Part shown: positions 1 through 25,034 of the stretch, in pieces
Position numbering within the stretch: the stretch's first letter is position 1
How the letters are laid out: every line of letters starts with the position of its first letter
NCBI GenBank assembly: GCA_020434205.1
Contig: JAGRBF010000154.1
Coordinates: 1 to 32,935 of the forward strand
Reading direction: 5' to 3'
Origin: Calditrichota bacterium
GTDB taxonomy: Bacteria > Calditrichota > Calditrichia > RBG-13-44-9 > J075
DNA: 32,935 bases
Notes under the pieces: model-generated
What the model was told of the DNA's origin: nothing
The model's input: the letters and a program-made list of their open reading frames with translations, nothing else
The model's database searches: none
Translations under genes and position numbers: made by a program

Positions 1-411
1 CATAGCATGATTGAACTAAATCCGCACAATCTTCATTTTTTGATTTTGCCCCGGTCAGCGGGCCTTTACAACCATTTTTGCAGTGGCCGACAGTGCTTCA
101 TCCATGGAAATTAAGGGCTTTCGATAGCAGGTTTTTCTATACGGGCGGCAGGCCCGGGACAGGAATAGGAAAAAAATTTCCGGCTTACTAGGCAATTCCT
201 TTGGTCAAAACCTGGCGAAGGGTAATTTTTGAAATTAGCCTATGCTGTTGTTAATAAAAGATTTGATGTTGTATTTGTAATGCTTTGGTATAGTTGTTGA
301 CACAAAATTGAAGGAGGACATTCATTTCGGACGTTCGGAGGCAGGTCCAGTTGTTGTCTGTTGGAAACGGTTTTCTAAATTTATTATTCATTAATCTTGC
401 TGGGAGATGTT
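1..411 (+). other. Non-coding leader upstream of the Asp-box secreted protein
   Basis: I find no convincing gene here. A TTGACA hexamer lies at 297-302, but the match 17-18 bases downstream is only half of a TATAAT, so a sigma70 promoter is possible rather than shown. A strong Shine-Dalgarno-like AAGGAGG at 311-317 has no usable start codon after it. The ten bases GTTCGGAGGC at 333-342 recur exactly in the terminator stem after the gene (2242-2251). The first 250 bases are AT-richer than the coding DNA and carry no recognisable structure. Confidence 0.4.
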
Positions 412-5635: not shown

Positions 5636-5670
5636 TCCAAGTAGACAGCCGTGAGAAACGAGGACTTATT

Positions 5671-8600: not shown

Positions 8601-8769
8601 GATTGAGAAAACCGATAGCGCCGTGGAAACGAGCTGGGATCTGCGCAACGAAGTTGGGCTGCGGATCGCCTCCGGCATGTATATTGCCCATATTGAGGTA
8701 AGAGGCGTCGGGGAAAAGGTGCTTAAGTTTGGTGTTATTCAGCGTGAAGACCGGATCGATCGTTTCTAA
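5671..8769 (+). CDS. Large exported protein with sorting-tail-like C-terminus
   Basis: I do not recognise the function of this 1032-residue protein. It starts with a clear signal peptide (MKLRSLTLCLFILALSFTAGA), with GAGG about 10 bases upstream of the ATG. The body is rich in Asp, Gly, Asn and aromatic residues, as expected for an all-beta secreted protein. The last about 105 residues (928-1032) resemble a type IX sorting domain: IVPNPYYAYSAYE, then IRIFNLAGQLVKTI, a WDLRNEVG strand and SGMYIAHIEV, ending in a charged tail (REDRIDRF) instead of the usual KKM(V/I)xxK. It lies between a TonB receptor and a PorV-like protein with short gaps, so I infer it is exported or surface-anchored with their help. 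An extracellular ligand-binding role is equally possible. Confidence 0.75.
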   Translation: MKLRSLTLCLFILALSFTAGAREKSGGEGEGLQKSAIIGEIKRIAVNRINLPLENNGDVGQSGASWFPNGQESLSFLFAGGPAMSGYVNGDLRTAWMASASRQYETQPGRTGSAPDDPLAKFYIVDNRKDSFGSAAYVDWANAVALGADYQDLDGNGSYDPNTDRPDILGDYTMWCVYNDGTPASARTELGTLPMGIDVLQTVWAFERSDPLGNVVFIRYRIVNANPSTDIDDFIFTAWVDPDLGDHLDDLIGCDIEPSLGYIYNDGDDNQYGSSPPAFGIDFFQGPIVESPGDTAYLARGPYFGVEAVPHYRNLPLTSFMYYIQSDPTLGDPANAQEARNYQEGGIDRLGDPVDPSLYGTGGEATSDSNYFYNGDPVAGTGWLDTRPTDKRFMMNTGPFQLAAGDTQDVVVAYIVSRGANALNSLSTLRTHDILAQAAYDNNFLAAPPLPPVNAYVEEKNNAVEFTIDLRAQREYGLQQDIVGQVGWEGIQIYQVRTDDFDSETVNGFDNIRLLATYDLNNEFGNLYVDTDQGRVLVSNGFGNLDSSDVYGVEFPTLRFTVTEDAFTGEPLINYTSYNFAIVPYGLNVDLATLNENTTTADDYVLPGGIFGKPLQTGRFTVMPGGSENVPFGSSEASRVAGISEGRLSVEVLDPDAVKGDTYQVSFFGNGNYWKIDNQTTGTNVLDSLTFQAVDQNTVSFPVVDGVAFQLYDVADSLKSVAVTADSVWLQGNKLSGFGDSLLFNWGFDLAVYAQNNPSIERVGINVNTQKQDYFPVRLVVDTAPSAATQAYYYTRNQQLFLANFYGGLVNSTVSAFDMSDPNNPRQLNILYNALNGELLFTPGNTNLIMVMNTDYNTGDVYNPNGGREFREDVYMVANLELATGAGLGASQMIFDVTPSRPNNDEVVYEVATADLLPVQSEEEKQDMLGMVNIVPNPYYAYSAYEESYDAPVLKFTHLSGPATIRIFNLAGQLVKTIEKTDSAVETSWDLRNEVGLRIASGMYIAHIEVRGVGEKVLKFGVIQREDRIDRF

Positions 8770-8814
8770 ATCGATCTTAAGCAGGGATTGAATCTCAAAA
8801 TTGAGGAAAAAGAG

Positions 8815-9828
8815 ATGCAAAACAAACTCATGATCATCGCACTCCTGCTTTTGGCCATGCTGACCAGCACCTGGGCAGGAGACGTAAACCGGATCGGCAC
8901 AGCCAGCGGTAGCCAATTGCTGATTCCCATCGGGGCCCGGTCCATCGGGATGGGCAATGCCCCGGTCGCCAGCATCGGCGGCACCGAGGCCATTTTCTGG
9001 AATCCGGCAGGGATGTCCGCGGTTAAAACCGCGGAAGTTATGTTCAACAACATGCAATACCTGGCGGATATCGACGTGAATTATCTGGCCACCGTCTACA
9101 ACGGCGGGCTGATCGGGTCCTTCGGGTTCAGCATCCAGAGTCTGGATTTCGGCGATATTCAGGAAACCACGGAAGAAATGCCGGACGGTACCGGCCGGAC
9201 TTATTCCCCCACTTATATGGTGGTCGGGGCGTCCTACAGCCGGCTTTTGACCGACCGCATCAGCGCCGGGGTTACCGGAAAATTCATCTACGAAGGTATC
9301 CAGCAAACCAGCGCTTCCTCCATTGCTCTGGACATGGGGGTTCAGTACACCTTCGGCAGTAACCTGTCGGTCGGGGTAGTGATGAAAAACATCGGCACAA
9401 AGATGCGCTTCGACGGGCGGGATATGGAACGCTCTTTCCGCCTGGGGAATCCCACCAGCGATAACGGTTACTACCGCGCTGTTTCCCAGGAATCCAATAT
9501 CCCCTCGGTGTTTTCCTTCGGTCTGGCCTATCGCTACAACGTCAACGAAGAAAACCACTTCAACGTCAACGGGACCTTCAGCAACTACAACGAAGCCTCC
9601 GACCAGCTCTACGGGGGGATCGAATACAGCTTTAAGGACTTTTTCTACCTGCGCGGGGGTTATGCTTACGAAGCCCAGGGAGACCAGGACCAATTGTTCG
9701 GCGGTGCCTTCGGAGCCGGTCTTACCTATCCGATGGGTAATATGAACGTTATCTTCGATTACGCCTATCGCCAAATAACCGACTACTTCGACGCCAACAG
9801 TATTTTTACCCTGAAGCTGAGTTTCTAG
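8815..9828 (+). CDS. PorV/PorQ-family outer-membrane beta-barrel protein
   Basis: This 337-residue protein belongs to the PorV/PorQ (UPF0164-like) family of FadL-like barrels. In known type IX systems, PorV collects cargo from the translocon and passes it to the attachment complex. The signature is near the N-terminus: an IPIGARSIGMGNAPVA-type segment, then GGTEAIFWNPAGMS. Alternating beta strands follow, and the protein ends in a Phe (FTLKLSF), typical of outer-membrane barrels. The ATG at 8815 is chosen over an in-frame TTG at 8788 because GAGG lies 8 bases upstream and it gives a good signal peptide (MQNKLMIIALLLLAMLTSTWA). It is last in the three-gene unit and is followed by a terminator. 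Pairing with one exported protein suggests a dedicated partner rather than the genome's general PorV. Confidence 0.85.
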   Translation: MQNKLMIIALLLLAMLTSTWAGDVNRIGTASGSQLLIPIGARSIGMGNAPVASIGGTEAIFWNPAGMSAVKTAEVMFNNMQYLADIDVNYLATVYNGGLIGSFGFSIQSLDFGDIQETTEEMPDGTGRTYSPTYMVVGASYSRLLTDRISAGVTGKFIYEGIQQTSASSIALDMGVQYTFGSNLSVGVVMKNIGTKMRFDGRDMERSFRLGNPTSDNGYYRAVSQESNIPSVFSFGLAYRYNVNEENHFNVNGTFSNYNEASDQLYGGIEYSFKDFFYLRGGYAYEAQGDQDQLFGGAFGAGLTYPMGNMNVIFDYAYRQITDYFDANSIFTLKLSF

Positions 9829-10185: not shown

Positions 10186-12432
10186 ATGAAAAAAGCATTT
10201 TTTCCCAGCACCAAAACCGTGTTGCTAACCGTCCTCTTTTCGGCGGGGATCAACCTTTTATTTGCCCTGCAGCCTCAGCCGGAACCCGATCCCTTTTTCG
10301 AAGCCACCCGCCTTTACGAACTGAAACAATACGGAAAAGCCCTGGAAACCTTCCAGCAGGCCATCGCCGAAGTGCCTTCCCTGGCAGACCGCTATCCCGA
10401 GGTGATGCTCAAGATTGCTTATTGCTATTACCGCACCGGACAATTTGAGGAAGCCGCCCGTCACTTCAGCGATAAGAAGGCCCTGATCCCGGAAGTGGAA
10501 GATTACGTGCGCTATTTTGCCCTGCGCTCCACCCTGGAAGCAGGCCATAGCAAAGAAGCGCGCCGCGGCCTGCGCAACTTCAACCTCACCATTCGCGATA
10601 CCCGCCTGCGGGTGCAAAGCGACTCTATTTTAGCGGAGCTGTATTTCGAAATTCCCAATCTGGATTCCGCCCGTTTCTACTACCGCCGCCAGCTTAATTA
10701 CGGGGATGTCAACAAGGGCGATATCCTCAGCCGCCTGGTGGATGTGGCGGTGAAGGCCCGCAACAAAAGCGACCTGGAGGAATACGGGTTCGATCTGCTG
10801 CGGCGCTACCCCTTTCACAAGGGCAGCAAAGCCGCTTACCGGGAGATTATGGCCCGCTACCGGGGGCGCATTTTCCCCGGTTCCAAGCTCAGCAAACTGT
10901 TCAAATACCTGAGTGTTACCGAGCAGTTTGTAGAAGCGGAAAACCTCCTCAACGTTCAGCAGCGCCTGGGCGCCAACGGCGAACAGGTGCGCTGGTACCG
11001 CATTCGCCTGGAATACGACAAAAAGAACTACTGGGCGGTTTCCCAGGAATGCCAGAGCCAGCGCGCCACCTTCCGCCAGGCCACTTACCTGCGCGAGGTA
11101 GACCTGCATATCGCCCGCTGCTATATGCGCCTCGGTTTTACCGATAAGGCGGTGGAAGGCTACGACGAATTTGCCCGCCGTTATCCCAACGATGCCCTGA
11201 CCCCGGAGGTGTTGTGGGTTATCGCCTGGCTCTCCGAGAAAAAAGGCGATATCGATGCCGCCCGCGGGTATTACAAACGGCTGATTACCAAATACCCGCG
11301 CTACGAGTTTGTTTCGGAATCCCGGTTTCGCATCGGGCTGTCCTATTACACCCAGGACAGCCTGGCCCTGGCCCGCAATTACCTCAATACCGCCCTGGCT
11401 CACGATAACGATGAAATTGCCCAGAACCGCTACAAATACTGGATCGCCAAAACCTATGCCCGTGAGGGCGATTCCCTGGAATACCGCCGCCAGCTGAAGG
11501 ATCTCTCCAGCAATCCCTTCGACGATTATTACTCTCTCAAGGGATTTCTGCTGACCAGCGACGGTCGGGAGGTCAATCAGTTTGTTGATAGCCTGTTATG
11601 GGAAATGCATCACAAAGAGACGAGTTATTTGCCCCAATATTTGGACAGGTTTCAGAAGCCGCTTCTGGTCCACGATATTTTTGGTGAACGTTTTGCCCAG
11701 CGGGAACTCAACCACCTCGCCAGCGCCATGGACAGCCCGGAATGGGAACTGCTCTATGCGTTGGGAGAAGTGAATGAGCACATGCAGAATTTCGGGCGCG
11801 CATTCCGGATCTATAACCGCCTCTTCCTGCGCAACTTTTCCCGCAAAGACTGGCGCGAATGGCTCTTCCTGGTAAAACATCTCTACCCCCTTTATTTTAC
11901 CGGGGAAGTTAACCAGTACGCCCGGGAATGGAATCTGACCCCGGCCAGCATCTGGGCGGTCATCAAAAAGGAAAGCGCCTTCGAACCGAACGTAATGTCC
12001 TATGCCAATGCATACGGCCTGATGCAGATTATTCCGCCGACGGCCAACCGGCTTACCGAAAGCCTGGGATTGGCCATGGAAGATGTCCGACAGCTCTACG
12101 ATCCCAATTTTAATATCCGGCTGGGCAGCTATTACCTGTCCGAACTGCTGAAGCGCTACGATGGCAATTTGTATTACGCCCTGGCTGCTTACAACGCCGG
12201 CGAACACCGGGTGGACCGTTGGAGTAAAGTCCTGAACACCGATGACGATGACTTCTTTATGGAGAACATCGAATTTGAACAAACCCGTACCTATGTGCGC
12301 GGGGTGATGAAGTTCTACTGGATGTACCATCTGCTGATTCATCCCTATCAGGTTCCCGAAAATCAGCTGGTTAATTTTCCCCATAAGGTGGCCAGAGACC
12401 CCTGGTTCCGGGAGCCGGAGGCGTTCGAATAA
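10186..12432 (+). CDS. Slt-type soluble lytic murein transglycosylase with helical-repeat N-region
   Basis: This 748-residue periplasmic enzyme should cleave the MurNAc-GlcNAc bond of peptidoglycan to give 1,6-anhydro ends. A signal peptide covers about residues 1-27. A long alpha-helical region follows, with TPR-like repeats (for example YELKQYGKALETFQQAI and the SRFRIGLSYYTQDSLALA area), as in Slt70. The C-terminal SLT domain shows IKKESAFEPN with catalytic Glu596, GLMQI (611-615) and AAYNAGEHRV (667-676), all in the expected order. The usual length for this type is 600-750 residues. No good ribosome site precedes the ATG, which is common in FCB leaders. The MltD-like gene starts 14 bases after its stop, so the two are very likely co-transcribed. 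Confidence 0.92.
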   Translation: MKKAFFPSTKTVLLTVLFSAGINLLFALQPQPEPDPFFEATRLYELKQYGKALETFQQAIAEVPSLADRYPEVMLKIAYCYYRTGQFEEAARHFSDKKALIPEVEDYVRYFALRSTLEAGHSKEARRGLRNFNLTIRDTRLRVQSDSILAELYFEIPNLDSARFYYRRQLNYGDVNKGDILSRLVDVAVKARNKSDLEEYGFDLLRRYPFHKGSKAAYREIMARYRGRIFPGSKLSKLFKYLSVTEQFVEAENLLNVQQRLGANGEQVRWYRIRLEYDKKNYWAVSQECQSQRATFRQATYLREVDLHIARCYMRLGFTDKAVEGYDEFARRYPNDALTPEVLWVIAWLSEKKGDIDAARGYYKRLITKYPRYEFVSESRFRIGLSYYTQDSLALARNYLNTALAHDNDEIAQNRYKYWIAKTYAREGDSLEYRRQLKDLSSNPFDDYYSLKGFLLTSDGREVNQFVDSLLWEMHHKETSYLPQYLDRFQKPLLVHDIFGERFAQRELNHLASAMDSPEWELLYALGEVNEHMQNFGRAFRIYNRLFLRNFSRKDWREWLFLVKHLYPLYFTGEVNQYAREWNLTPASIWAVIKKESAFEPNVMSYANAYGLMQIIPPTANRLTESLGLAMEDVRQLYDPNFNIRLGSYYLSELLKRYDGNLYYALAAYNAGEHRVDRWSKVLNTDDDDFFMENIEFEQTRTYVRGVMKFYWMYHLLIHPYQVPENQLVNFPHKVARDPWFREPEAFE

Positions 12433-12446
12433 ACCCTGAGTAAACC

Positions 12447-15227
12447 ATGCATCAGATAAGCCGATTGTCCAACCCCAACCCTCTTTGCTCTGCATTACCC
12501 CGGTTAATCGGCCTGGCCGGGTTTGTTATGGCCGCTCTGATGCTGACCTCCACCCTGGTTGCCCGCGACCTTCCCCACGGCAAAGCTCTGGCCAAAGAAG
12601 TGGCTTTCTGGAAGCGCGTTTTCGCCAAAACCCCCTCAACCCAATACATTATCCACGATTCGGATAAGCTGGACATTGTCTACGGCGTGGTGACCATCGC
12701 GGACACCAGCCTGAGCAATCGGGCCGTGGAAGATTCCCTGGAAGCGCTCAAAAAACCCTATGCCCGGATGCTGCGCAGCTTTGCAGCCGGCAAGGTGGAT
12801 CTGCGCATGCTCTCCCCGGCAGAAGTGGCGATTTATCAGCGCTTCGCCGAGGTGGATGAGCCGGATAAGTTCAATACCGCCATTCGGCGCCTGCGCGCTC
12901 AAAAAGGTATTCAGGATAATTTCAAAGCCGGGGTAACCCGCTCCTTTGCTTACCTGCCTTATATCCGCAAGGTGTTTCGGGAGGAAGGGCTGCCGGATTT
13001 CCTGGTATACCTGCCCCATGTGGAATCCTCCTTCAACCCCATTGCCCGCTCCCACGTCGGCGCGGCCGGCATGTGGCAGTTTATGCCCGGCACGGCACGT
13101 TCCTTTATGAAGGTGAACCGCGTTAAGGACGAGCGTTACGATCCCTTTAAGGCCACCCACGGCGCGGCGCGCATGCTCAGCTATAACTACCGGATCCTGC
13201 AGGATTGGGCGCTGGCTATTACCGCCTACAACCACGGTTTGGGCAGTATGAAAAAGGCCAAAAAGCGCTTTGGGGATTACGTGACCATTCGCGAGAATTA
13301 CCTGCGCCGCTCCTTCGGCTTTGCCTCGAAAAATTTCTACCCCGAGTTCCTGGCGGTGGTGGAAATTATGGATAGTCTGGCGGTATACTTTCCGGACATC
13401 GAACGGCACATACCTCCGGAATTTCAGGAGATTCAGACCCCGGTGGATCTGCGCCTGGACCAGTTCTCCAAAATCTCGGGAATCCCCGATTCCCTGCTGC
13501 GGGCGCTGAACCCCGGATACCGCGAAGATGCCTGGGAAGGGCGCCGCATCGTTCCTCAGAATTATACCCTGCGCCTTCCCCTGGAAAGCGACGCCGCCCA
13601 CATCATCGCACAGTTAAACGGCAGCATGGAGGATTATCGCAAGGTGCGGGTGGTGATGCGCGGCAGCGATCCCGCCCAGGTGGCGGTAGGCGGGCCGGAA
13701 TTGCTGTGGCAATCCCAGCGGGATGCCCTTGCTTCTGCCCAGGCTCTGAAACATTTGGTGCTGGATGCTCCCCGGCAGTTGTTCCCCGAACCGGAACCGG
13801 AAGCCTTGTTTGTGCGCGCTACGCCGGAAGCCCTCCCGGTCAGCTTTGCCGAAAGTGCAGTGGCGGTTTCCCTGTCTGCCGGGATCGGTCCGGTCGCCCC
13901 GGTGCGTAACGTTCTTTCTCCGGAGCGCATGCATTTGCGGGATGTGGAAGCAGAAGATGACCCGGAGCTCCTGGCGGAGGTTCGCGCCGACGCCGCTGTC
14001 TCCCAGCCGCTTGCCACTCCGGCGGAAGCCCCCCGGCGGACTGTTGAGGAAGCCCAGCTGGCGGTTCAGGCCCCGCGTCCGGCCCTTCCCGAAACCCAGC
14101 CCGCTCCCGCCGAGTTGGTGGCAGAAGGGATCGCCGGAATGTATTCCCGCCATTTACCCGCAGATCGCCCCTCCTCAGCGGATCCGGCGCTGGTCTTGTA
14201 CGTGCGCAGCGAGAGCGAAAGTCCGGATCCCGCCGAAGTGGTTCTCGCCGAAAATACGCTGAGTGGAAACCCGGTAACCTCCCGGGGACCACGGGCGGAA
14301 AATCCGACGGTGTCCGAACGGAACCTGTCGGTTAAAGCCGCTTTACCTCCGGTTAATCTGGAAGAGGGACGCACCCTGGCCGCATTGGAAAATCCGCGGG
14401 CCCTCCCTTCCGGCGCCGGTGCCGGCCTTTCCGAAAGGCAGTTGACGGTTTTGGCCGAGGAAGCTCAGCCTGCCGGAGAAACCGCGTTGGTGGCCAGTAC
14501 CTTCCAACGCCCGGAAACCCGCTCGCCCCTGGCGCTGCAGTCCCGCTCCGGTGCGCTTCCGGAAAATGCTCTGGAAACCCGCACGAGTGGGAATACCCCG
14601 GTAGACCTGTCCGGCTCGGGCCTGGAGGCCGCTTTGGCGGTTAAGCGCGGGCCGCAGGAAACCCTGCCCGGAACGGCTCCGGTGGAATCCGCTTATCAAA
14701 TGCGCCCCGGCGCTTCCCAACCTGCCCGCCCGGAAGCACCGCTTTCCCGCCCTGCCCCGGTGGCCTTTAAGGGAAATCAGGTGGGCATGGATGAGGTGCT
14801 GACCCTGCTGATCCGCCAATTGACCCCGGTTGGGGAAAAAACCACCGTTTTTCCCGAAGAGACCATTGGGCATTTCGGGGACTGGCTTAGTCTGGATACC
14901 GGGGATATCCGCCGCCTCAACGGCATGAAAAGCGGGCAGGCCCTCCTTTCCGGCCAGCCCATCCGCATCAGCTTCGAGGGGGTAAACGCCGATCGTTTCC
15001 TGCGCCGGCGCCTGCGTTTCCACGCCGGATTGCTGGATCACTACTTTCCCAATCAGGACAGCATCGAACTTACCGATTACCGGGTTCGCTCCGGTGATAA
15101 CCTGTGGCGCATTGCCAACCAAAGCTCCGCCATTCCCCTAAACCTTTTGCTTTACTTTAATGAGTGGGATAAATTAATGCGTCTTCAACCCGGGGATCTG
15201 GTCAAACTGCCGGTTCTGGAGCGCTAA
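12447..15227 (+). CDS. MltD-like lytic transglycosylase with long Pro/Ala/Glu-rich linker and LysM domain
   Basis: This 926-residue protein has an N-terminal membrane or signal segment (about 20-39). Its SLT catalytic domain carries LPHVESSFNP with catalytic Glu193, then AAGMWQFMPGTAR and ITAYNHGLGSM, which is MltD-type. Residues 329-378 form the MltD-style module that ends in QNYTLRLP. A low-complexity stretch of about 345 residues (425-770), rich in Pro, Ala, Glu, Ser and Arg, follows and looks disordered. The C-terminus has a degenerate LysM-like segment (about 804-845) and a good LysM (878-922, YRVRSGDNLWRIA ... LQPGDLVKLP) for peptidoglycan binding. E. coli MltD is about half this size, so the linker is the odd feature. 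The STAS gene starts 9 bases after the stop. Confidence 0.9.
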   Translation: MHQISRLSNPNPLCSALPRLIGLAGFVMAALMLTSTLVARDLPHGKALAKEVAFWKRVFAKTPSTQYIIHDSDKLDIVYGVVTIADTSLSNRAVEDSLEALKKPYARMLRSFAAGKVDLRMLSPAEVAIYQRFAEVDEPDKFNTAIRRLRAQKGIQDNFKAGVTRSFAYLPYIRKVFREEGLPDFLVYLPHVESSFNPIARSHVGAAGMWQFMPGTARSFMKVNRVKDERYDPFKATHGAARMLSYNYRILQDWALAITAYNHGLGSMKKAKKRFGDYVTIRENYLRRSFGFASKNFYPEFLAVVEIMDSLAVYFPDIERHIPPEFQEIQTPVDLRLDQFSKISGIPDSLLRALNPGYREDAWEGRRIVPQNYTLRLPLESDAAHIIAQLNGSMEDYRKVRVVMRGSDPAQVAVGGPELLWQSQRDALASAQALKHLVLDAPRQLFPEPEPEALFVRATPEALPVSFAESAVAVSLSAGIGPVAPVRNVLSPERMHLRDVEAEDDPELLAEVRADAAVSQPLATPAEAPRRTVEEAQLAVQAPRPALPETQPAPAELVAEGIAGMYSRHLPADRPSSADPALVLYVRSESESPDPAEVVLAENTLSGNPVTSRGPRAENPTVSERNLSVKAALPPVNLEEGRTLAALENPRALPSGAGAGLSERQLTVLAEEAQPAGETALVASTFQRPETRSPLALQSRSGALPENALETRTSGNTPVDLSGSGLEAALAVKRGPQETLPGTAPVESAYQMRPGASQPARPEAPLSRPAPVAFKGNQVGMDEVLTLLIRQLTPVGEKTTVFPEETIGHFGDWLSLDTGDIRRLNGMKSGQALLSGQPIRISFEGVNADRFLRRRLRFHAGLLDHYFPNQDSIELTDYRVRSGDNLWRIANQSSAIPLNLLLYFNEWDKLMRLQPGDLVKLPVLER

Positions 15228-15236
15228 GCATTTCCT

Positions 15237-15599
15237 ATGGCGACATTTTCAACACGATGCGAGCAAAACGGCCCGGTGGCCGTGCTACGATTGAAAGGTC
15301 GCCTGACGGAGCACCATGCCGCCCAGACCGTCCAGCAGCAGATCAAAAGCCGGATTGAAGCAGGTGTTGTCCTGATCGTTCTCGATCTGCAGGAGCTGTC
15401 CTGGATGAACAGCACCGGTTTGGGCAGTTTGATGGCCGGCATGAGCAGCCTTCGCCAGTCGGGCGGCAATGTTTGCCTGGCCCGGGTGCCGGAGAAAATT
15501 CACAATATCCTGATGATCACCAAGCTGGTGGAAATTTTCCCGATCGAAAAAAGTGTGGACGCCGCCGTTGCCTTCCTGGCCGGAAGCAATCCGCGTTAA
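15237..15599 (+). CDS. STAS-domain anti-sigma factor antagonist-like protein
   Basis: This 120-residue protein is a single STAS domain of the SpoIIAA/RsbV type. Such proteins bind an anti-sigma factor or other partner when unphosphorylated and are switched off by phosphorylation of a conserved Ser. The motif is plain: VLIVLDLQELSWMNSTGLGS, where the candidate phospho-site is Ser59 and the TGLG turn follows. It starts nine bases after the MltD-like gene and is followed 75 bases later by a histidine kinase. No RsbW/SpoIIAB-type kinase or sigma factor is encoded nearby, so its partner is elsewhere or is unconventional. The family call is firm; its role in this operon is inferred. Confidence 0.9.
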   Translation: MATFSTRCEQNGPVAVLRLKGRLTEHHAAQTVQQQIKSRIEAGVVLIVLDLQELSWMNSTGLGSLMAGMSSLRQSGGNVCLARVPEKIHNILMITKLVEIFPIEKSVDAAVAFLAGSNPR

Positions 15600-15674
15600 C
15601 CACCTGCCGGCCGCCCCCGCCACTACCCTTTACAGCACCAATTGCTTCAGAAGAAAACCCGGAAAGGTTCCGTT

Positions 15675-17432
15675 ATGACCGACAAAACCGTCAGGGAAAT
15701 GGATCGGATAGACTGGGAACGCCTTTTTCAGCAAAAGGAAAAAGAGCTTTATTCCATCCAGCGCATCGGCAAAGCCCTCAGTTCTACCCTGCGGATCGAG
15801 GAACTGCTGCGCCTGATTATTCAGGAAATAACCTCCTTGATGGACGCAGACCGCAGCTCCCTGTTCATCGTCGATCACGAGAAAGGGGAGATCTGGTCCC
15901 AGTTTGCCCAGAAGGCCGAGATTCGGGAAATCCGCCTGCCCATCGGGCGGGGCATTTCCGGCTACGTCGCCCAAACCGGGGAAGTCATCAATATTCCCGA
16001 TGCCTACCAGGATGAGCGCTTCGACCCCGCCACCGATAAAAAAACCGGTTACCACACCCGTTCGATTTTATGCATGCCGGTCTGGGAACCCCACGGCAAA
16101 CCGGGCGAACGCCGGGTAACCGGGGTAATCCAGGTGCTCAACAAACGCGACGGGGCTTTCTCCGGGGAGGATGAGGATCTGTTGGAAGCCCTGGCCGCTC
16201 AGGTGGCCATCTCCATTTCCAATGCCCGCCTTTATCGCCGTCTGGAGAAAAAATACCGGGAAATGGACCTCCTCTACGACTTCGAGCAAATGCTCAACGT
16301 GGAAAACGACCTGGGGGAACTGACCCACAAAATCCTGGAACGCACCGTCGGCCATCTTCAGGCGGAGTGGGTTTTCGCCTTCCTTCCGGGTGAGGGCAAG
16401 TACAGCTTTTTTGCGGTGGCGGGAAGCCTGCAAGGGTTTCGCCAAAGCGCCACCACCGTTCCCCTGGGGTGGATCCACCTGATGGAAAACCTCAGCCGGG
16501 AAGGCCTGCTTAAAAACTGGGGAGATGCCTGCGCCTTTTTCGGCCTCGGAGAGACAGAACCGCCCTCCGGCGAGCTTCAGCTGATCAGCGCTCCGGTGCC
16601 CTTTTCCGAGGAACAAACCGGGACCATCTGGGCCCTGGTGGATGGGGTGGGACGCTCCGCCCAATGGGAAGATGACCGCATGCTGATGGATCTGGTGGGG
16701 CAGAAAATCTACCGGGCCCGGGAGATTGAAACGCTGCGCGGGGATTTGCTGAAGCAGGAACGCCTTTCCGCGATCGGTCAGTTGATGAGCACCATCGTAC
16801 ACGACATCCGCGGTCCCGTGAACACCATTTACGGATTTGTCGATTTGATGAAGGATGCCGACGCCAGCCAGGGCGAGCGCGAAGAATACGCCGAGATCAT
16901 CCGCTCCGAATTTCAGTCCGCCATGAACCTGATCACCGAAGTTCTGGATTTTGCCAAGGGCAAAACCAGCATCCTGGCCCGGAAATCCAGCGTGGCCAAC
17001 CTCCTGAAACGCTTCCGCCCCCGCCTGGAACAGATGGGGCAGAAATACAATACCGAGGTGGAGGTGGAGGTGCAGAGCCAGCAATTGCTCTACATCGATG
17101 TGGAAAAACTCAACCGGGTTTTTTACAACATCACCAAAAACGCCCACGAGGCCATGGGGGAGGGGGGGCGCTTTCTGTTCCGGATTTATGACGACAGCGA
17201 GGCGGTGGTTTTTCAATTTACCGACAACGGTCCGGGGATTCCGCGGGAAATCCAGGATCGCCTTTTCGACTCCTTCGTGACCTCCGGGAAAGAAGGCGGC
17301 ACGGGATTGGGGCTGGCCATCGTTCAAAAAATCGTGGCGGAGCATCACGGCAGCATTGCCATCGATTCCCAACCCGGCCAGGGCGCGACTTTTCGCATTT
17401 CCCTTCCCATCTACCGGCCCCCCTCTGCCTGA
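15675..17432 (+). CDS. GAF-domain sensor histidine kinase
   Basis: This 585-residue kinase has no membrane segment and should be cytosolic. The ATG at 15675 is chosen over an in-frame TTG at 15642 because GGAAAGG lies 7 bases upstream. A first GAF domain (about 41-186) has an INIPDAYQDERFDPATD-type loop resembling the NKFDE region of cyclic-nucleotide GAF domains. A weaker GAF-like region covers about 200-350. The kinase core has the phospho-acceptor His376 in an HDIRGP H-box, an N-box (YNITKNAHEAM, about 484-494), DNGPGIP (517-523) and GTGLGLAIV (542-550). No response regulator is adjacent. Position after the STAS gene suggests that it acts on that branch or on a distant regulator; this is inference. 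Confidence 0.92.
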   Translation: MTDKTVREMDRIDWERLFQQKEKELYSIQRIGKALSSTLRIEELLRLIIQEITSLMDADRSSLFIVDHEKGEIWSQFAQKAEIREIRLPIGRGISGYVAQTGEVINIPDAYQDERFDPATDKKTGYHTRSILCMPVWEPHGKPGERRVTGVIQVLNKRDGAFSGEDEDLLEALAAQVAISISNARLYRRLEKKYREMDLLYDFEQMLNVENDLGELTHKILERTVGHLQAEWVFAFLPGEGKYSFFAVAGSLQGFRQSATTVPLGWIHLMENLSREGLLKNWGDACAFFGLGETEPPSGELQLISAPVPFSEEQTGTIWALVDGVGRSAQWEDDRMLMDLVGQKIYRAREIETLRGDLLKQERLSAIGQLMSTIVHDIRGPVNTIYGFVDLMKDADASQGEREEYAEIIRSEFQSAMNLITEVLDFAKGKTSILARKSSVANLLKRFRPRLEQMGQKYNTEVEVEVQSQQLLYIDVEKLNRVFYNITKNAHEAMGEGGRFLFRIYDDSEAVVFQFTDNGPGIPREIQDRLFDSFVTSGKEGGTGLGLAIVQKIVAEHHGSIAIDSQPGQGATFRISLPIYRPPSA

Positions 17433-18662: not shown

Positions 18663-19319
18663 ATGGAAATTAAAGATACTCGACTTTCCCGCGTGGCGGA
18701 GGCCTATACCCGGGAGCGGCTGGAGATGGTGGAAAGCCAGCTGGTTGCCAGAGATATTGCCCAGCCGGATCTGCTTGCCGCTTTCAAACGGGTACCCCGG
18801 CACCTCTTTGTACCCGCAATCGCCCGCCAGCAGGCTTATGCCGACCATCCCCTTCACATCGGAGACGGCCAGACCATTTCCCAACCTTACATTGTTGCCT
18901 ACATGGTGGAGCGCCTCCGATTGGGCAAGGGGGACCGGGTTCTGGAAATCGGCAGTGGCTGCGGATATCAAACCGCAATTCTGGCCGAATTGACCGCCGA
19001 AGTGTGGTCCCTGGAAATCCGGCGCACCCTGGCCGAGGACGCCCGGCGGCGCCTTCATGCCCTGGGGTATCAGAACGTGCGGGTCCTGCATGCCGATGGT
19101 TATGACGGGCTGGCGAACCAGGCCCCCTTCGATGCCATCATCCTCTCCGCCGCGCCTCCTCGTATCCCCCGGGAGCTGATTTCCCAACTGGGACAAACCG
19201 GCCGTCTCATTGCCCCGGTGGGGGTGGAAAACCAGCAACTGGTATTTGTTTCCAAAACCGAAGGCGAACTAAAGCTGGAACCCGACCTCGCGGTGCGTTT
19301 CGTTCCCATGACCCGGTAA
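18663..19319 (+). CDS. pcm: Protein-L-isoaspartate (D-aspartate) O-methyltransferase
   Basis: This 218-residue enzyme uses S-adenosylmethionine to methylate isoaspartyl residues in damaged proteins and start their repair to Asp. Typical features are GDGQTISQPYIVAYM (67-81), the SAM-binding motif I VLEIGSGCGYQTA (93-105), an acidic strand-end residue in VWSLEI and a GRLIAPVG strand (180-187). The length matches the family (about 205-220). GAAAGGACC lies just upstream of the ATG. It stands as a small unit with the deacetylase-fold gene ahead of it. In many genomes pcm is near surE and rpoS, but neither is present here. Confidence 0.95.
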   Translation: MEIKDTRLSRVAEAYTRERLEMVESQLVARDIAQPDLLAAFKRVPRHLFVPAIARQQAYADHPLHIGDGQTISQPYIVAYMVERLRLGKGDRVLEIGSGCGYQTAILAELTAEVWSLEIRRTLAEDARRRLHALGYQNVRVLHADGYDGLANQAPFDAIILSAAPPRIPRELISQLGQTGRLIAPVGVENQQLVFVSKTEGELKLEPDLAVRFVPMTR

Positions 19320-19423
19320 GCAACGCGGCTAATTTCCCTTAATTTCAAAAACACGGTGGGTTTCTGCAATTCTGGATGTTCCGGGGATGAATGCCCGGGC
19401 AGATTTGCAGAGGGATTGGTTTT

Positions 19424-20089
19424 ATGCGACTTCTTTTTTGGGGGATGGTGACCCTGTTCCTGACAAGCGGCTGCGACAGCGATCGTTTCCTGGGTTATAA
19501 TTACGAAGCCCGTAAAGTCGCCCAGTCTTTGAAGATTACCGGGCGGATTTCGGACAGCCGGACCGGGGCGGGCGTTCCGCGCGCCCTTATCAATATCGGC
19601 GGGCAAACGGCCAGCTGCGATTTTGCGGGCAATTTCTCCTTTAATTATCTCACCACCGAGGACGTGGGGTTGGGACAAACTCAGCCTCTGGTGGTATCCT
19701 CGGAAAAATATTTCTCCCATGTGGCGGAATTAACCCTGTATCCGGACGCCAATAATCTCAATATTGCTCTGGAATATGCCGCGCCCATTGTTCTGGCCAG
19801 CGGACATGCCGGTGGGGAGGTTTGGGCAAATGTGCGGGACTATCAGGGGGTGGACAATCTCAGCACCGTACAGGTAAGCGCCTATTATTACAACCCGGGC
19901 ACCCGCCAGACCCGGGAATTCTTTTTTCCCATGGTGCGGGATCAGATTCTGGACGGGGAAACCGCCCGCTACACCGGCACCCTGCCGGAAAGCGTGGAGG
20001 ACCAGACCTGGGGACTTACCACCGCCTTCTATTTTATCAATCCCCGCGATAAGGACGGTTTTACCGATCGTTTCCGCTATCAGTTTTAA
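19424..20089 (+). CDS. Lipoprotein paralog 1 of a tandem triplet (C-D-S-D-R-F-L-G family)
   Basis: This 221-residue lipoprotein has no function that I can name. The ATG at 19424 (GAGGG nine bases upstream) is chosen over 19391 because it gives a compact lipoprotein signal ending LTSGC, with the lipid-bearing Cys17. The mature N-terminus reads CDSDRFLGYNYEAR. Next comes a carboxypeptidase-regulatory-like beta domain (about 36-110, ITGRISDSRTGAGVPRA ... FAGNFSFNY), then YAAPIV, a DYQGV segment and FFPMVRDQILDG, all found again in the two following genes. Acidic residues right after the Cys fit the surface-export signal seen in Bacteroidetes lipoproteins, so I infer an outer-membrane, possibly surface, position. 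It heads a cluster that ends in a TonB receptor. Confidence 0.82.
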   Translation: MRLLFWGMVTLFLTSGCDSDRFLGYNYEARKVAQSLKITGRISDSRTGAGVPRALINIGGQTASCDFAGNFSFNYLTTEDVGLGQTQPLVVSSEKYFSHVAELTLYPDANNLNIALEYAAPIVLASGHAGGEVWANVRDYQGVDNLSTVQVSAYYYNPGTRQTREFFFPMVRDQILDGETARYTGTLPESVEDQTWGLTTAFYFINPRDKDGFTDRFRYQF

Positions 20090-20122
20090 AGCGGGGACGG
20101 CGGACCATTAAAGGATCTCAGG

Positions 20123-20848
20123 ATGGCCAGGTTACCTAAAAATCCATTTGTTTTGCTGCCGGGAGGGTTATTGCTGATGCTGCTTCTCTCCGCGGGCTGT
20201 GATACGGATCGTTTCCTGGGGACCAAATACAGCGCCGACGCCATTGCGGCAACCGCGGAGATCAATGGGGTGATCAGCGATACCCGGACCGCCCTGCCGG
20301 TGCCGAGAGCCACCGTTTCCGTGGCCGGCCAGAGCGCCCGCACCCGGCCGGACGGGACCTTTAAACTCAACTATATCCTCGGAAACAGCGAAACCTACAA
20401 TGCCCTTATTCCGGTAACCGTTTCGGCAACCAATTATCTGCCCCGGCACCTGAGCGTGGCGGTTTATCCCAACGGAACCTACTTTACCGCCAGCCTGGAA
20501 TACGGGGCGCCGATTATCCTGGACGGTTCGGTGGACAGCACCGTGTCCGATACCCTGGAAGCCCCGCTTTTTTGGGGAAATGCGGTGGTCATGGACTATC
20601 AGGGGGTGGCGGATATCGATTCGGTTTTGATCGAGCTGTTTTACTGGAACCCGGACAGCGTTTCCGGCTTCCTGCGTCGTTTTCCTCTGAGGCGGGTGGA
20701 GAACCTGGACTCGCTCACCGGGCGCTTCCGGGGGGAAATTCCCGAAGCCCTGGAAGCGTATCAACTGACGCCCCCCCATTTTACGATTTTTGCCGTAGAC
20801 CGCTTTCCCTTTCGGGTCAGCCGGGGGTTTCTGTTTAGCAGGCCGTAA
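20123..20848 (+). CDS. Lipoprotein paralog 2 of a tandem triplet
   Basis: This 241-residue protein has a lipoprotein signal ending LLSAGC (Cys26) and the mature start CDTDRFLGTKYSAD. Its layout matches its neighbours: a carboxypeptidase-regulatory-like domain (INGVISDTRTALPVPRATVSV ... PDGTFKLNY, about 48-120), LEYGAPII, then a second beta domain with DYQGVADIDSV, a FYWNPDS strand, FPLRRVEN and FRGEIPE. It differs from paralog 1 by a longer N-terminal signal and an extra segment before DYQG. AAGGA lies seven bases before the ATG, and the gap to paralog 1 is 33 bases, so the genes are one transcription unit. Function unknown; the regular domain plan points to a structural or ligand-binding surface protein. 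Confidence 0.82.
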   Translation: MARLPKNPFVLLPGGLLLMLLLSAGCDTDRFLGTKYSADAIAATAEINGVISDTRTALPVPRATVSVAGQSARTRPDGTFKLNYILGNSETYNALIPVTVSATNYLPRHLSVAVYPNGTYFTASLEYGAPIILDGSVDSTVSDTLEAPLFWGNAVVMDYQGVADIDSVLIELFYWNPDSVSGFLRRFPLRRVENLDSLTGRFRGEIPEALEAYQLTPPHFTIFAVDRFPFRVSRGFLFSRP

Positions 20849-20889
20849 GGTGGCTCTGGCATAACTTTAACGAAAGATAGGGTGCTGTA

Positions 20890-21624
20890 ATGCTCCAGAA
20901 AAAAAAATCCCCGGGCCGGCCGGGGTTGTGGCCGATCCTGTTGTTGCTGCTTTGGATGGGCGCCGGCTGCGATTCCGACCGCTTCCTGGGCTCCAATTAC
21001 GAAGCCCGCTCGGTGGCCAGCGTGATCCGCATCGAAGGGGAATTGCAAAACGTCTTCACCGGCGATGAGGTGGACAGCGCGGAAGTCAGCATCAATTTCC
21101 AGCGCGCCTATTCCGGAGTAGACGGGCATTTTAGCCTGAATTACGTTCTGGAAGCCAATACCGGCATGAGCGTTCCGGTGCCCCTCACCATCCGCGCAGA
21201 CAAATATTATCCCATCGATACCACCCTGACGGTTTTGCCGGCCGATAATTACCTCAACGTTTCCCTGACCTACGCCGCACCGCTGGTGCCCTTTTCCCAG
21301 CGTTTCCCGCCCGGATCCAACCCGGATGCCTATCCCATAGAGGCCCTGGTTTTTGATTATCAGGGGATCGCCACCGTCGATTCGGTTAAGGCGATCGGCC
21401 TGTATTGGGACGGGACCTACAAAATACGGGTGGAAACCACCTTTCCCATGGTGCGCAGGCAGGTGGTCGATCAGTATTCGGCCTGGTTCGAGGGGGAACT
21501 GCCGGGCTTTATCTACAATCTCAACGTGCCGGAGCCGAGTCTTTCGGCGATCTATTCCGGGATTCACGGGATCTACGTCCGGGATAATGAGGGATACTGG
21601 CAGAGGGCCTTTTTTACCTACTGA
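20890..21624 (+). CDS. Lipoprotein paralog 3 of a tandem triplet
   Basis: This 244-residue protein has a Lys/Arg-rich signal start and a lipobox ending MGAGC (Cys27). The mature N-terminus, CDSDRFLGSNYEARSVAS, is closest to paralog 1 (CDSDRFLGYNYEARKVAQ). The regulatory-like domain (about 47-125, with SGVDGHFSLNYVLEAN), LTYAAPLV, DYQGIATVDSV, TTFPMVRRQVVD and a terminal aromatic (FFTY) follow. Shared PMVR and YEAR motifs suggest that paralogs 1 and 3 are nearer relatives than either is to 2. It starts 41 bases after paralog 2 and lies about 110 bases before the TonB receptor, so I infer that all four act together at the outer membrane. No catalytic motif is visible. Confidence 0.82.
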   Translation: MLQKKKSPGRPGLWPILLLLLWMGAGCDSDRFLGSNYEARSVASVIRIEGELQNVFTGDEVDSAEVSINFQRAYSGVDGHFSLNYVLEANTGMSVPVPLTIRADKYYPIDTTLTVLPADNYLNVSLTYAAPLVPFSQRFPPGSNPDAYPIEALVFDYQGIATVDSVKAIGLYWDGTYKIRVETTFPMVRRQVVDQYSAWFEGELPGFIYNLNVPEPSLSAIYSGIHGIYVRDNEGYWQRAFFTY

Positions 21625-21734
21625 GGCGAATTGATCAGGCCAAATTTCAACGCCGCCGGGTGATCGCGGCGGCTTTCACACCAAAAATGCAGATACGGAG
21701 CATTATGTTACGGTTCGGAACAGGGGAAAAGAAA

Positions 21735-23996
21735 ATGGAAAGGCGCCATCACACCGGTTTGCTCCTGGGGTGGATGATCCTGATTGTCCTGGCGATGGCC
21801 CGGCCGGCGTCCGCTCAGGAACTGCGGGTCTCGGGAGTGGTTATTGATCTGCAAACCCGCAATCCCCTCAAAGGGGCGGATGTGTATCTCAAAACCCTGC
21901 GGGTGGGTTCCACCACCGATGAGGACGGCTTTTTCAGCATCGTGATCGCTCAACCCGCCCTCCCGGAGGATATTCTGGTGATCAGCTTCCTGGGCTATAA
22001 CACCCTGGAAATTCCCCTGAATGAGGTGGCGGAAAGGAAAGAAATTGCCCTGAGCCCCAATGCCATTCTGCAGGATTCGGTGATCGTCAGCGCTCAGAAA
22101 ATTGATATCGTCAACCAGGAAATTCCCCACGCCCGCACCGTGATCGATCAAACCCTGATCGAAATCCGCGGCACCAACGAAATCAGCAGCATTTTTAAAG
22201 GCGTGCCTTCGGTGCAGATCGAAGGTAATGAGGTGAGCGGCAAGCGCATTCAGATTCGCGGCAGCGATCCCAACGAGGTGAACGTCTACATCGACGGCAT
22301 TTCCATCAACAAGCTGGGGGTGGACAATGCCGCCGACCTGTCCCTGATATCTCTGGACAACATCGAAACCATCGAAGTCCTGAAGGGGGCCAATTTGACC
22401 CTCCTGGGGGCCGGGGCCTTCGGCGGGGTGGTCAACATCACCAGCCGTCGCTCGGTGGAGCGGGAGCTGATGTTCAAAACCCGGCACGGCAGCTTCGAAA
22501 GTCAGCAGTATGTCGGGGAGGCCAATCTGCCCTTCGGCAAACGGGTGGTGCTCAATTATTTCGGGCAGTACAGCGATATCCGTCCCCCTATCGAATTTCT
22601 GCCGGGCGAAGAGCGGGATCCCGATAAAAGCGAAAATGAAAATGTGGAAACCCGCCGCCAAAACCACAGCCTCAATCTCAATTACTACGGGGAACGGGGG
22701 CAGTTGAGCCTGCGCGGCCTGGCCTATTTTCTGGATTACCAAAAACCGCTGTTGACCAACGAACGCAAAAATTATCTGGGCGCCCTCAACTACCAGGGGT
22801 CGATCGGTTTCCTGCGGGATTTCGATTTTACGGTCAATTATATTTACGGGGATGACGACCTCATCCAGGAGGTCCGCGAACAACCCACCAGTTTTTCCAC
22901 CAATTTTATCTCCCAGAATCTGACTGCCCGCCTCCTGAAGCGGGTCACCTTCGGACGGGCCAACGAGTTTCAGTTTCAGGGAGAATACATCCACGACGAG
23001 CTGACCCGCGAGCAGTTTCAGGATAACGGGTTGGGAAATCCCATCAGCCTCTACGATGCCCTGCTCTACGAAAACCGCCTCAACCTGGCCGGGGTGATCG
23101 CCTTCAACGATGAAATCGCCGGCCATCGCAACCTGCACTGGAATACCCATATCGGGATGCGGGGGGATTTTCTGGCCACCGGGGATTCCTACTTTGCACC
23201 GACATTGGGCGCCCAGATCGAGTGGAAAAACGGATACTGGACGATGATCCCCTACGGCAGCTACGGCAAAAACGTGAAGTTTATTTCCCTTAAGGACAAT
23301 TCCCTGGCCGGGCTGCAGGGGCAGGATTCCACCCGCATCGGGGTGATCGCCTCGGTGGCCGACTCCACCCTGGAACGGCTGCCGCCGGAGATCAGCAATG
23401 CCGGGGAGATCGGGGCGACCTTTCAGTACGCCCGTCCCAATCGCCCTTACCGGGCTCTCAATTTCTCCCTGGCCCTGTTTCGCAACACCGTTTTCAACAA
23501 ACTGCTGCGCCACCCGGACCGCCCCTTTCTGATCCTGGCCCAGAATGGGCGCAACGTTACCAGCGGGATAGAAGCCTCGGCGGGGGTATCGCGACTGGCC
23601 GGGCACTTCGACATTACCGCTTCCGCCAGCATTTTTAATATTGATGAGCCCCTGGTCTATCCCTTTAAACCGGAACAGTCCCTCAGCCTGCAGACCGATT
23701 ACTTTAGCGGATTCGGATTTTATCTGAGCGTCACCGGCTTTTATCAGGGGAAAAGTAGCGGGTGGAAGGTCAAGGAAGCCGCCGCCGCGGAACTGCGCAT
23801 TACCCAGGATGATATTGAAGAAGAGGAAATCGGGGATTACGCGGATGTGGACCTGAGTGTGGGCTATCGTTTCCGCCTGGGCGGAGCGCAGATGAACCTG
23901 CAGTTTTCCGGCAACAATCTTTTTGATGCCAGCGGCTACCAGTTTTATTTGCTGGGGAAACGCAACCTGCAGGTTTCCCTGTCGGTAAGGTATTAG
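21735..23996 (+). CDS. TonB-dependent receptor following the lipoprotein triplet
   Basis: This 753-residue receptor is smaller than the one at 2657. The ATG at 21735 gives a standard signal peptide (about 1-27, ending PASA before QELRV); ATG at 21705 and 21660 are in-frame alternatives, the former with a GGAG upstream. In order come a carboxypeptidase-regulatory-like domain (32-107), DSVIVSA (114-120) as likely TonB box, a plug (130-240, RIQIRGSDPNEVNVYIDG and GAGAFGGVVNITSRR) and a barrel ending in a SLSVRY strand. Features such as FQFQGEYIHDELTREQF and FSGNNLFDASGYQFY fit siderophore- or cobalamin-type receptors in general, but the ligand is not readable. Linkage to three lipoproteins instead of SusD is unusual. 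Confidence 0.9.
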   Translation: MERRHHTGLLLGWMILIVLAMARPASAQELRVSGVVIDLQTRNPLKGADVYLKTLRVGSTTDEDGFFSIVIAQPALPEDILVISFLGYNTLEIPLNEVAERKEIALSPNAILQDSVIVSAQKIDIVNQEIPHARTVIDQTLIEIRGTNEISSIFKGVPSVQIEGNEVSGKRIQIRGSDPNEVNVYIDGISINKLGVDNAADLSLISLDNIETIEVLKGANLTLLGAGAFGGVVNITSRRSVERELMFKTRHGSFESQQYVGEANLPFGKRVVLNYFGQYSDIRPPIEFLPGEERDPDKSENENVETRRQNHSLNLNYYGERGQLSLRGLAYFLDYQKPLLTNERKNYLGALNYQGSIGFLRDFDFTVNYIYGDDDLIQEVREQPTSFSTNFISQNLTARLLKRVTFGRANEFQFQGEYIHDELTREQFQDNGLGNPISLYDALLYENRLNLAGVIAFNDEIAGHRNLHWNTHIGMRGDFLATGDSYFAPTLGAQIEWKNGYWTMIPYGSYGKNVKFISLKDNSLAGLQGQDSTRIGVIASVADSTLERLPPEISNAGEIGATFQYARPNRPYRALNFSLALFRNTVFNKLLRHPDRPFLILAQNGRNVTSGIEASAGVSRLAGHFDITASASIFNIDEPLVYPFKPEQSLSLQTDYFSGFGFYLSVTGFYQGKSSGWKVKEAAAAELRITQDDIEEEEIGDYADVDLSVGYRFRLGGAQMNLQFSGNNLFDASGYQFYLLGKRNLQVSLSVRY

Positions 23997-24012: not shown

Positions 24013-24076
24013 AGATCCTAAGAATGGGAGAGATCCTAAGATCTAATGTTCTAAATATCTTAGGATCTTAAGATCT
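24013..24076. repeat. Octamer-period palindromic array between convergent genes
   Basis: Units of eight bases close to TAAGATCT run in register from 24037 to 24076 (TAAGATCT, AATGTTCT, AAATATCT, TAGGATCT, TAAGATCT), and AGATCCTA-type copies lie just before. The array also contains a perfect 12-bp inverted repeat (24031-24042 with 24057-24068, 14-base loop). It sits in the 78-base gap between the receptor stop and the stop of the minus-strand gene, which it overlaps by two bases. It may act as a bidirectional terminator; its origin is probably a repeat expansion. Confidence 0.75.
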
Positions 24077-25034
24077 ACTGACTTTCCTGCCACGGCAGGC
24101 GATCCAGATCCAGATTTCCCCCGCTGATGATAATGCCCACCTTCTGCGCCTTTCCCCCGGGGCCTTTTTCCAGCAGGGCCGCCAGCGGCACCGCTCCAGA
24201 GGGCTCCACGATAATCTTCATCCGCTCCCAGATCAGGCGCATGGCACGGACGATGGCTTCGTCCGAGGCGGGATAAATGCGCTCCACATGCCGGGAAATG
24301 ATCGCGAAGGTTTTGTCCGCCAGGGAGGTGAGGAGGCCGTCCGCAATGGTTCTGGGATTCTGAGAGGGAATGATGCGCCCGGCCGCCAGGGAACGTATGG
24401 CGTCATCCGCGCCGGCCGGCTCCGCTCCCCAAACCGAGATGTCCGGGGCGAGTGCTTTGGCGGCAATAGCGGTGCCGCTCATTAAACCGCCCCCGCCCAC
24501 CGGGGCGATAATGGCGTCCAGATCCGTTATTTCCTCAAGCAGCTCAAGGGCGGCGGTACCCTGCCCGGCGATAATACGGTCGTTGTTGAAGGGGTGGATA
24601 AAAGTCGCCCCGGTTTCCGCCACCACCTGTTCCAGGGTTTCCTCGCGGGCCTGCAGGGTAGGTTTGCACAGGGTGATCCGCCCCCCGTATCCCGCAACCG
24701 CTTTCTGTTTGATCTTCGGGGAGGTCTCCGGCATAACGATGTGAGCGGGAATGCCGCGCATACGGGCCGCCAGGGCCAGGGCCTGGGCGTGATTCCCCGA
24801 AGAATGGGTAGCCACCCCGGCGGCTGCTTCGGCCTCGCCGAGAGACATCACCGCATTGCAGGCCCCGCGAAATTTAAAGGCCCCTACCTTCTGGAGATTT
24901 TCACACTTAAAAAAAAGCTGCATGCCGCAGATCTCGTTAATGGCCAGGGAGGTCAGAACCGGGGTGCGGTGGGCAAGGGGGGCGATTCGGGCCGCCGCCT
25001 CGCGAATATCGGAAATGCCGGGGATGTTGGTCAT
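24075..25034 (-). CDS. Fold-type II PLP enzyme: serine/threonine dehydratase or serine racemase type
   Basis: This 319-residue enzyme is the only supported gene on the minus strand. It should deaminate Ser/Thr or a hydroxy-Asp to the keto acid, or racemise Ser. Lys54 in GAFKFRGA is the PLP Schiff-base residue, HSSGNHAQ (77-84) binds substrate, PVGGGGL (178-184) holds the phosphate, and SGGN (304-307) contacts the pyridine. It ends soon after that, so it lacks the ACT-type regulatory domain of biosynthetic threonine deaminase (ilvA). VEPSGA (276-281) is nearer to the serine racemase / threo-3-hydroxyaspartate ammonia-lyase branch than to tdcB, but I cannot decide. No strong ribosome site is seen; an octamer repeat element lies just upstream. 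Confidence 0.88.
   Translation of the reverse strand: MTNIPGISDIREAAARIAPLAHRTPVLTSLAINEICGMQLFFKCENLQKVGAFKFRGACNAVMSLGEAEAAAGVATHSSGNHAQALALAARMRGIPAHIVMPETSPKIKQKAVAGYGGRITLCKPTLQAREETLEQVVAETGATFIHPFNNDRIIAGQGTAALELLEEITDLDAIIAPVGGGGLMSGTAIAAKALAPDISVWGAEPAGADDAIRSLAAGRIIPSQNPRTIADGLLTSLADKTFAIISRHVERIYPASDEAIVRAMRLIWERMKIIVEPSGAVPLAALLEKGPGGKAQKVGIIISGGNLDLDRLPWQESQ

Follow-up and report, generated by a model that had tools for sequence, protein, structure and literature searches.

The 32,935-nucleotide contig JAGRBF010000154.1 of a Calditrichota bacterium (assembly GCA_020434205.1), taken here over its whole length and hereafter called the window, carries on its forward strand three adjacent lipoprotein genes that are followed by a gene for a TonB-dependent receptor (TBDT) (Table 1). 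We estimate a probability of roughly 0.6 that these genes encode a lipoprotein-assisted TonB-dependent import system, similar in operation to BtuBG or XusAB, in which the partner of the receptor is a two-domain beta lipoprotein of a kind not described before. Studies of such import have elucidated SusCD, BtuBG, and XusAB in Bacteroidota. If the reading is right, a pair with its own lipoprotein family in another phylum would extend the principle beyond these cases and mean that the fold of the partner is free to vary. New here are the lipoprotein family and the repeated arrangement of one receptor with several lipoproteins, which, if true, would provide a directly testable route to broader uptake. 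In addition, proteins without a Pfam or NCBIfam name become accessible through the 22-member profile.

The lipoprotein family and its domains

A preliminary description of the window, made from the sequence alone, had reported three adjacent related lipoproteins with shared motifs in front of a TonB receptor, and open reading frames, alignment, and profile confirm it. The three proteins align end to end at about 35% identity, their signal peptides all end in Gly-Cys, and their mature parts start with CDSDRFLG (lipoproteins 1 and 3) or CDTDRFLG (lipoprotein 2). Common to them are also a Y(A/G)AP joint and a second beta domain with DYQG(V/I). The likeness goes far beyond chance, since a profile of the lipoproteins picks up homologues in 17 further genomes.

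The searches used profiles of first the three window sequences and then 22 members (profile A2). Family members occur in 18 of 40 genomes from the window's own phylum, while 345 genomes from elsewhere in the domain Bacteria gave no full-length match, only matches to the domain 1 half of larger proteins; the weak matches G255, G384, and G003:C132 are likewise domain 1 halves within larger proteins. A SusD-rich phylum, which the 15 SusD genes in genome G101 mark as probably Bacteroidota, gave no match at all in 396 genomes, with the recovery of all 18 positives in the window's phylum by the identical profile as the positive control. A contig scan of 84,980 species with the three-sequence alignment returned no lipoprotein, with patterns that are too strict to prove absence, and its sole locus fell in a Salinivirgaceae metagenome-assembled genome (MAG), on the receptor domain of a SusC-like protein. 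Compared with Pfam and NCBIfam, the 22 members gave nothing above cut-off, only weak CarboxypepD_reg similarity. Among solved structures, the family matched nothing past the common carboxypeptidase-regulatory-like domain.

This domain, proposed earlier for all three lipoproteins, is real, but weak by sequence, and its fold backs it. The Pfam matches lie under the curated cut-offs in lipoprotein 1 (PF13715, 15.8 bits) and lipoprotein 2 (PF13620, 21.5 bits) and are absent from lipoprotein 3. In AlphaFold2 models built from only the three window sequences, domain 1 of lipoprotein 1 (residues ~31–118) is sound, with a confidence score (pLDDT) of ~80–90, and in Foldseek it matches human carboxypeptidase D at the transthyretin-like domain (5aq0), with a root-mean-square deviation (rmsd) of 2.7 Å and a TM-score, by target length, of 0.78. 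The model of lipoprotein 3 (pLDDT 57) was too poor for a structure search. Domain 2 is predicted to be beta-rich, and from its secondary structure we would guess an Ig-like fold; Foldseek matches to teneurin, cytokine receptors, and FN3 domains were discarded (rmsd >10 Å, low TM). A Cys lies shortly before DYQG in 12 of the 22 members, usually with no obvious second Cys, in a column that corresponds to V133 of lipoprotein 1 (19820–19822) and that holds no Cys in the window copies.

The partner receptor

The receptor consists of an N-terminal carboxypeptidase-regulatory-like extension (CarbopepD_reg_2, PF13715, 51.5 bits), a TonB-box-like DSVIVSA, a plug (80.7 bits), and a beta-barrel. A profile of 13 receptors taken from beside lipoproteins (A3) defines a clade of its own, present in 18 of the 40 phylum genomes at 915–1130 bits, with the next TBDT in the phylum at 218; a search of 385 genomes found none outside the phylum at E ≤ 1e-60. 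Its scores stay far under the cut-offs of the SusC/RagA, BtuB, haem, and siderophore receptor families. The size of about 750 amino acids is that of a regular TBDT, not of SusC, and points to a small substrate, for instance a cofactor or metal chelate, rather than a glycan. A second, distant receptor-lipoprotein pair is perhaps present in genome G034 (L065:3241–6345), where a lipoprotein of 282 aa comes after another TBDT (218 bits to A3). The N-terminal domain of this lipoprotein looks similar; the protein scores 15 bits against A2 and matches nothing in Pfam.

Coupling of lipoprotein and receptor

Across the 40 phylum genomes, lipoprotein and receptor are both present in 17 and both missing from 21, with one genome having the lipoprotein only (G001) and one the receptor only (G032; Fisher p = 3.5e-9, kinship not corrected for). 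The contrast between joint presence and joint absence is repeated within families f2, f3, f4, and f5 and even in the single genus g14, in which G029 has both genes and G017, G033, and G036 have neither, so the pattern does not go back to one inherited event. In 13 genomes the two genes are adjacent on one strand, the lipoprotein first in 12 and the receptor first in G013, and the genes outside the pair vary, with ABC transporters, Mla-type transporter genes, queuosine genes, and malate dehydrogenase among those recognized by eye from their N-termini. The pairwise identities of lipoproteins and receptors also correlate (Mantel r = 0.83). The earlier proposal that the lipoproteins belong with the receptor thus stands, given this adjacency and the fact that, of 19 genomes with at least one of the two, 17 have both.

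The tandem triplet did not hold up as the defining feature, as none of the other 17 positive genomes has tandem copies. Of the two outcomes that were to speak against a coupled system, homologues that are mostly single were indeed found (one per locus outside the window), and homologues that are never near receptors were not, as the 13 adjacent pairs show. Genome G005 has exactly one lipoprotein at the syntenic site (in the order GAF histidine kinase, protein-L-isoaspartate methyltransferase (pcm), lipoprotein, receptor). In G002, G003, G004, and G006, the syntenic receptor has no lipoprotein beside it, and the lipoproteins are found at other sites on different contigs, with both genes retained.

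In the phylogenetic tree, which is of moderate strength (supports 82–94, long branches), the window copies fall into two groups that also hold scattered copies of G002, G004, G005, and G006, while a third group is made up of scattered copies of G002, G003, G004, and G005. Lipoprotein 2 groups with the single lipoprotein that precedes the receptor in G005 (82/80 support), and lipoprotein 3 is nearest to lipoprotein 1; two copies of one paralogue group and one of another therefore stand beside the receptor in the window's genome. As the tree places them with scattered copies in related genera, the window copies are old paralogues. Each receptor-bearing genome in the window's family has one receptor of the clade and one to three lipoproteins from the three old paralogue groups. 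Members of the third group (L042, L050, and L057) adjoin large secreted proteins, one with a weak Omp28 match (L050), and a divergently placed SusC-sized outer-membrane protein lies near the third-group lipoprotein in L042 and L057.

The conserved tail after the lipidated Cys

The segment that follows the lipidated Cys is the most conserved part of the family, at 2.5 bits per column, ahead of domain 1 (2.2) and domain 2 (1.9). Position +4 (D20 of lipoprotein 1) is acidic in 19 of 20 readable members, and of the 21 members readable at the following positions, 20 have an aromatic residue at F22, 16 a Gly at G24, and 15 an aromatic residue at Y27, giving the consensus [DE]-[KR]-[FY]-x-G-x-x-Y. 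The tail is absent from 13 other predicted lipoproteins in 368 kb of the window's genome. Acidic residues after the Cys had been brought forward earlier as a possible signal for the cell surface. The surface-export signals described for Bacteroidetes are K-(D/E)2, SDDDD, or SDDFE (PMC5080379), and at least two acids in the first six residues after the Cys have served as a yardstick for surface lipoproteins (PMC12578637); 13 of the 21 readable members reach that number, and the acidic residues are at best a putative surface signal. Being family-specific and constrained, the tail resembles a docking segment more than it does an address label of general use. Its conservation fits the docking idea, and the partner would most likely be the receptor barrel.

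Comparison with known systems

With adjacent, co-inherited genes for a TBDT and a lipoprotein, the pair has one feature of the lipoprotein-assisted TonB-dependent uptake class. It resembles BtuB-BtuG of vitamin B12 uptake in Bacteroides in that a regular-size TBDT has a dedicated lipoprotein partner and that BtuB offers the nearest solved structure to the receptor plug. The lipid-anchored N-terminal linker of BtuG, which comes after the lipidated Cys, follows a loop of its receptor (PMC10404256), much as is proposed here for the tail. In contrast, BtuG has a beta-propeller fold, none of its chains among the PDB sequences is matched by the lipoprotein profile, and the receptor fails the BtuB equivalog TIGR01779 (69 bits vs a cut-off of 600). 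Across 13 loci (147 kb), Rfam gave no match, a cobalamin riboswitch included; hence, the surroundings give no clue to the substrate, and a role in B12 uptake is not supported by either the riboswitch search or the equivalog. XusA-XusB, a xenosiderophore uptake system, likewise combines a TBDT with a capture lipoprotein for a small chelate (PMC13142918), but XusB is a DUF4374 protein and none of the 22 family lipoproteins matches DUF4374.

SusC-SusD and RagA-RagB share with the window the carboxypeptidase-regulatory-like N-terminal extension of the receptor and the neighboring gene for an outer-membrane lipoprotein. The lipoproteins described here are about half the size of SusD and beta-rich, with no match to SusD Pfam families in any of the 22 at E ≤ 1, and the receptor has about 750 residues rather than about 1000 and scores 78.4 bits against TIGR04056 (SusC/RagA; cut-off 368). 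A true SusD is encoded elsewhere in the window's genome (G000:C261). The defining lipoprotein and receptor families having been tested in this way, the pair does not belong to BtuBG, XusAB, or SusCD, which agrees with the earlier view of an assembly of another kind; by sequence, the lipoproteins are not like SusD, BtuG, or XusB. The adhesion role offered as an option in that view found no support. In the Bacteroidota BAM complex, BamG-BamH set a precedent for the docking of a conserved lipidated N-terminal tail on a barrel protein (PMC12611786, PMC12578637), although the barrel, BamG, is of the FadL type, the complex serves the assembly of outer-membrane proteins, and no homology to it was found here.

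Proposed mechanism and alternative explanations

In the import system that we propose, the receptor would be the energized outer-membrane channel and the lipoproteins its dedicated outer-membrane partners, held by their lipidated Cys. The lipoproteins are probably exposed on the cell surface and docked by the conserved tail against a shared surface, most likely the receptor barrel, with which they would form a physical complex. The two beta domains, hinged at an invariant AAP, could then serve for substrate capture or as a lid. The receptor, whose size makes a metal chelate, a cofactor, or another small molecule a candidate substrate, would take over the substrate from them for TonB-driven import. 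With several diverged lipoproteins per single-copy receptor in the window's family, the former may be interchangeable capture subunits, three of which would lie inside the receptor's own transcription unit in the window's genome. It is possible, though we think it clearly less likely than not, that several diverged and exchangeable lipoproteins, having mainly docking tail and hinge in common, share one TonB receptor, and that substrate range is widened through the capture subunit and not through the transporter.

Several observations weigh against such an import system. The domain 2 models are poor (pLDDT ~45–65), and no binding site can therefore be named. The correlation between the identities of lipoproteins and receptors partly mirrors species kinship, and several of the family f1 lipoproteins are distant from the receptor. 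In G032 (87% complete), the receptor has no lipoprotein upstream or elsewhere in the genome, and G001 has a lipoprotein and no receptor, though the lipoprotein's gene runs off the contig end. Finally, domain 1 resembles a domain that is periplasmic in receptors.

The last point leads to the alternative that survives best, which we nevertheless consider rather improbable, namely that the lipoproteins are periplasm-facing partners that pack on the N-terminal extension of the receptor and serve in assembly, TonB engagement, or signaling instead of substrate capture. Domain 1 is homologous to that extension in the partner receptor itself (hhalign probability 95.7%, E = 8.9e-9), and the modest share of members that reach the acidic yardstick would also suit a periplasmic orientation. 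However, the domain is widespread in many settings, with 46 CarboxypepD_reg matches in the window's genome, and divergence is faster in the lipoprotein (mean identity 28%) than in the receptor (40%), which is more usual for surface parts.

It is unlikely that the genes are linked with no joint function, as independent adhesin-like or structural envelope proteins whose co-occurrence reflects common ancestry or transfer. The family f1 genes do lie mostly at separate loci, and weak, poorly superposed Foldseek matches to adhesins and pilins point the same way, but presence and absence switch jointly in at least four families and within one genus, adjacency is kept amid changing surroundings and once in reversed order, and both genes are retained even when unlinked. 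That an ordinary lipoprotein was triplicated locally and very recently, with no meaning for the receptor, is suggested by tandem copies in the window's genome only. This is very unlikely and is rejected by the tree, in which the window copies join separate groups with 82–94% support; at 35% identity, they are at least as far from each other as from copies in other genera.

Locus layout and other features of the window

Table 1. Positions of the lipoprotein-receptor genes, their domains, and the flanking genes in the window
Feature	Position	Strand	Remarks
Lipoprotein 1	19424–20089	+	221 aa; in-frame ATG at 19391 would give 232 aa
Lipoprotein 1, lipidated Cys and conserved tail CDSDRFLGYNYE	19472–19507	+	Per-column conservation
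Lipoprotein 1, domain 1, transthyretin-like (carboxypeptidase-regulatory-like) beta sandwich	19517–19774	+	AlphaFold2, Foldseek, hhalign
Lipoprotein 2	20123–20848	+	241 aa
Lipoprotein 2, lipidated Cys and conserved tail CDTDRFLGTKYS	20198–20233	+	Alignment and per-column conservation
Lipoprotein 3	20890–21624	+	244 aa
Lipoprotein 3, lipidated Cys and conserved tail CDSDRFLGSNYE	20968–21003	+	Alignment and per-column conservation
Partner TBDT	21735–23996	+	~753 aa; best start ATG 21735, open frame from 21660
Receptor N-terminal extension (PF13715)	21828–22088	+	Pfam
Receptor plug domain (PF07715)	22116–22430	+	Pfam
pcm	18663–19319	+	Pfam PF01135, 195.6 bits
Threonine-dehydratase-like gene	24075–25034	-	Convergent, downstream of receptor; named by eye

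Gaps of 33, 41, and 110 bases separate the lipoprotein genes from each other and the last of them from the receptor gene, and promoter and terminator patterns across this stretch showed no excess over chance. The upstream gene pcm, which occupies the same place in G003, G004, G005, and G006 (by eye), is taken here as a neighbor conserved within the family and not as a part of the proposed lipoprotein-receptor system. Further upstream (10186–17432) lie a pair of lytic transglycosylases in succession (one has TPR repeats, the other LysM), followed by a STAS protein and a GAF-domain histidine kinase, in a neighborhood much of which is retained in related genera.

Elsewhere in the window's genome, a single 769-aa open frame (G000:C566, ~12–2210) contains at least eight CarboxypepD_reg repeats. 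Near the start of the window (397–2229), a 611-aa protein has a confident Por_Secre_tail domain for type IX sorting. At 2657–9828 lie a large Oar/SusC-like TBDT (992 aa), a 1032-aa protein with a weak C-terminal sorting domain of the type IX secretion system (T9SS), and a PorV-like barrel in a row, which suggests a type IX secretion cargo unit.

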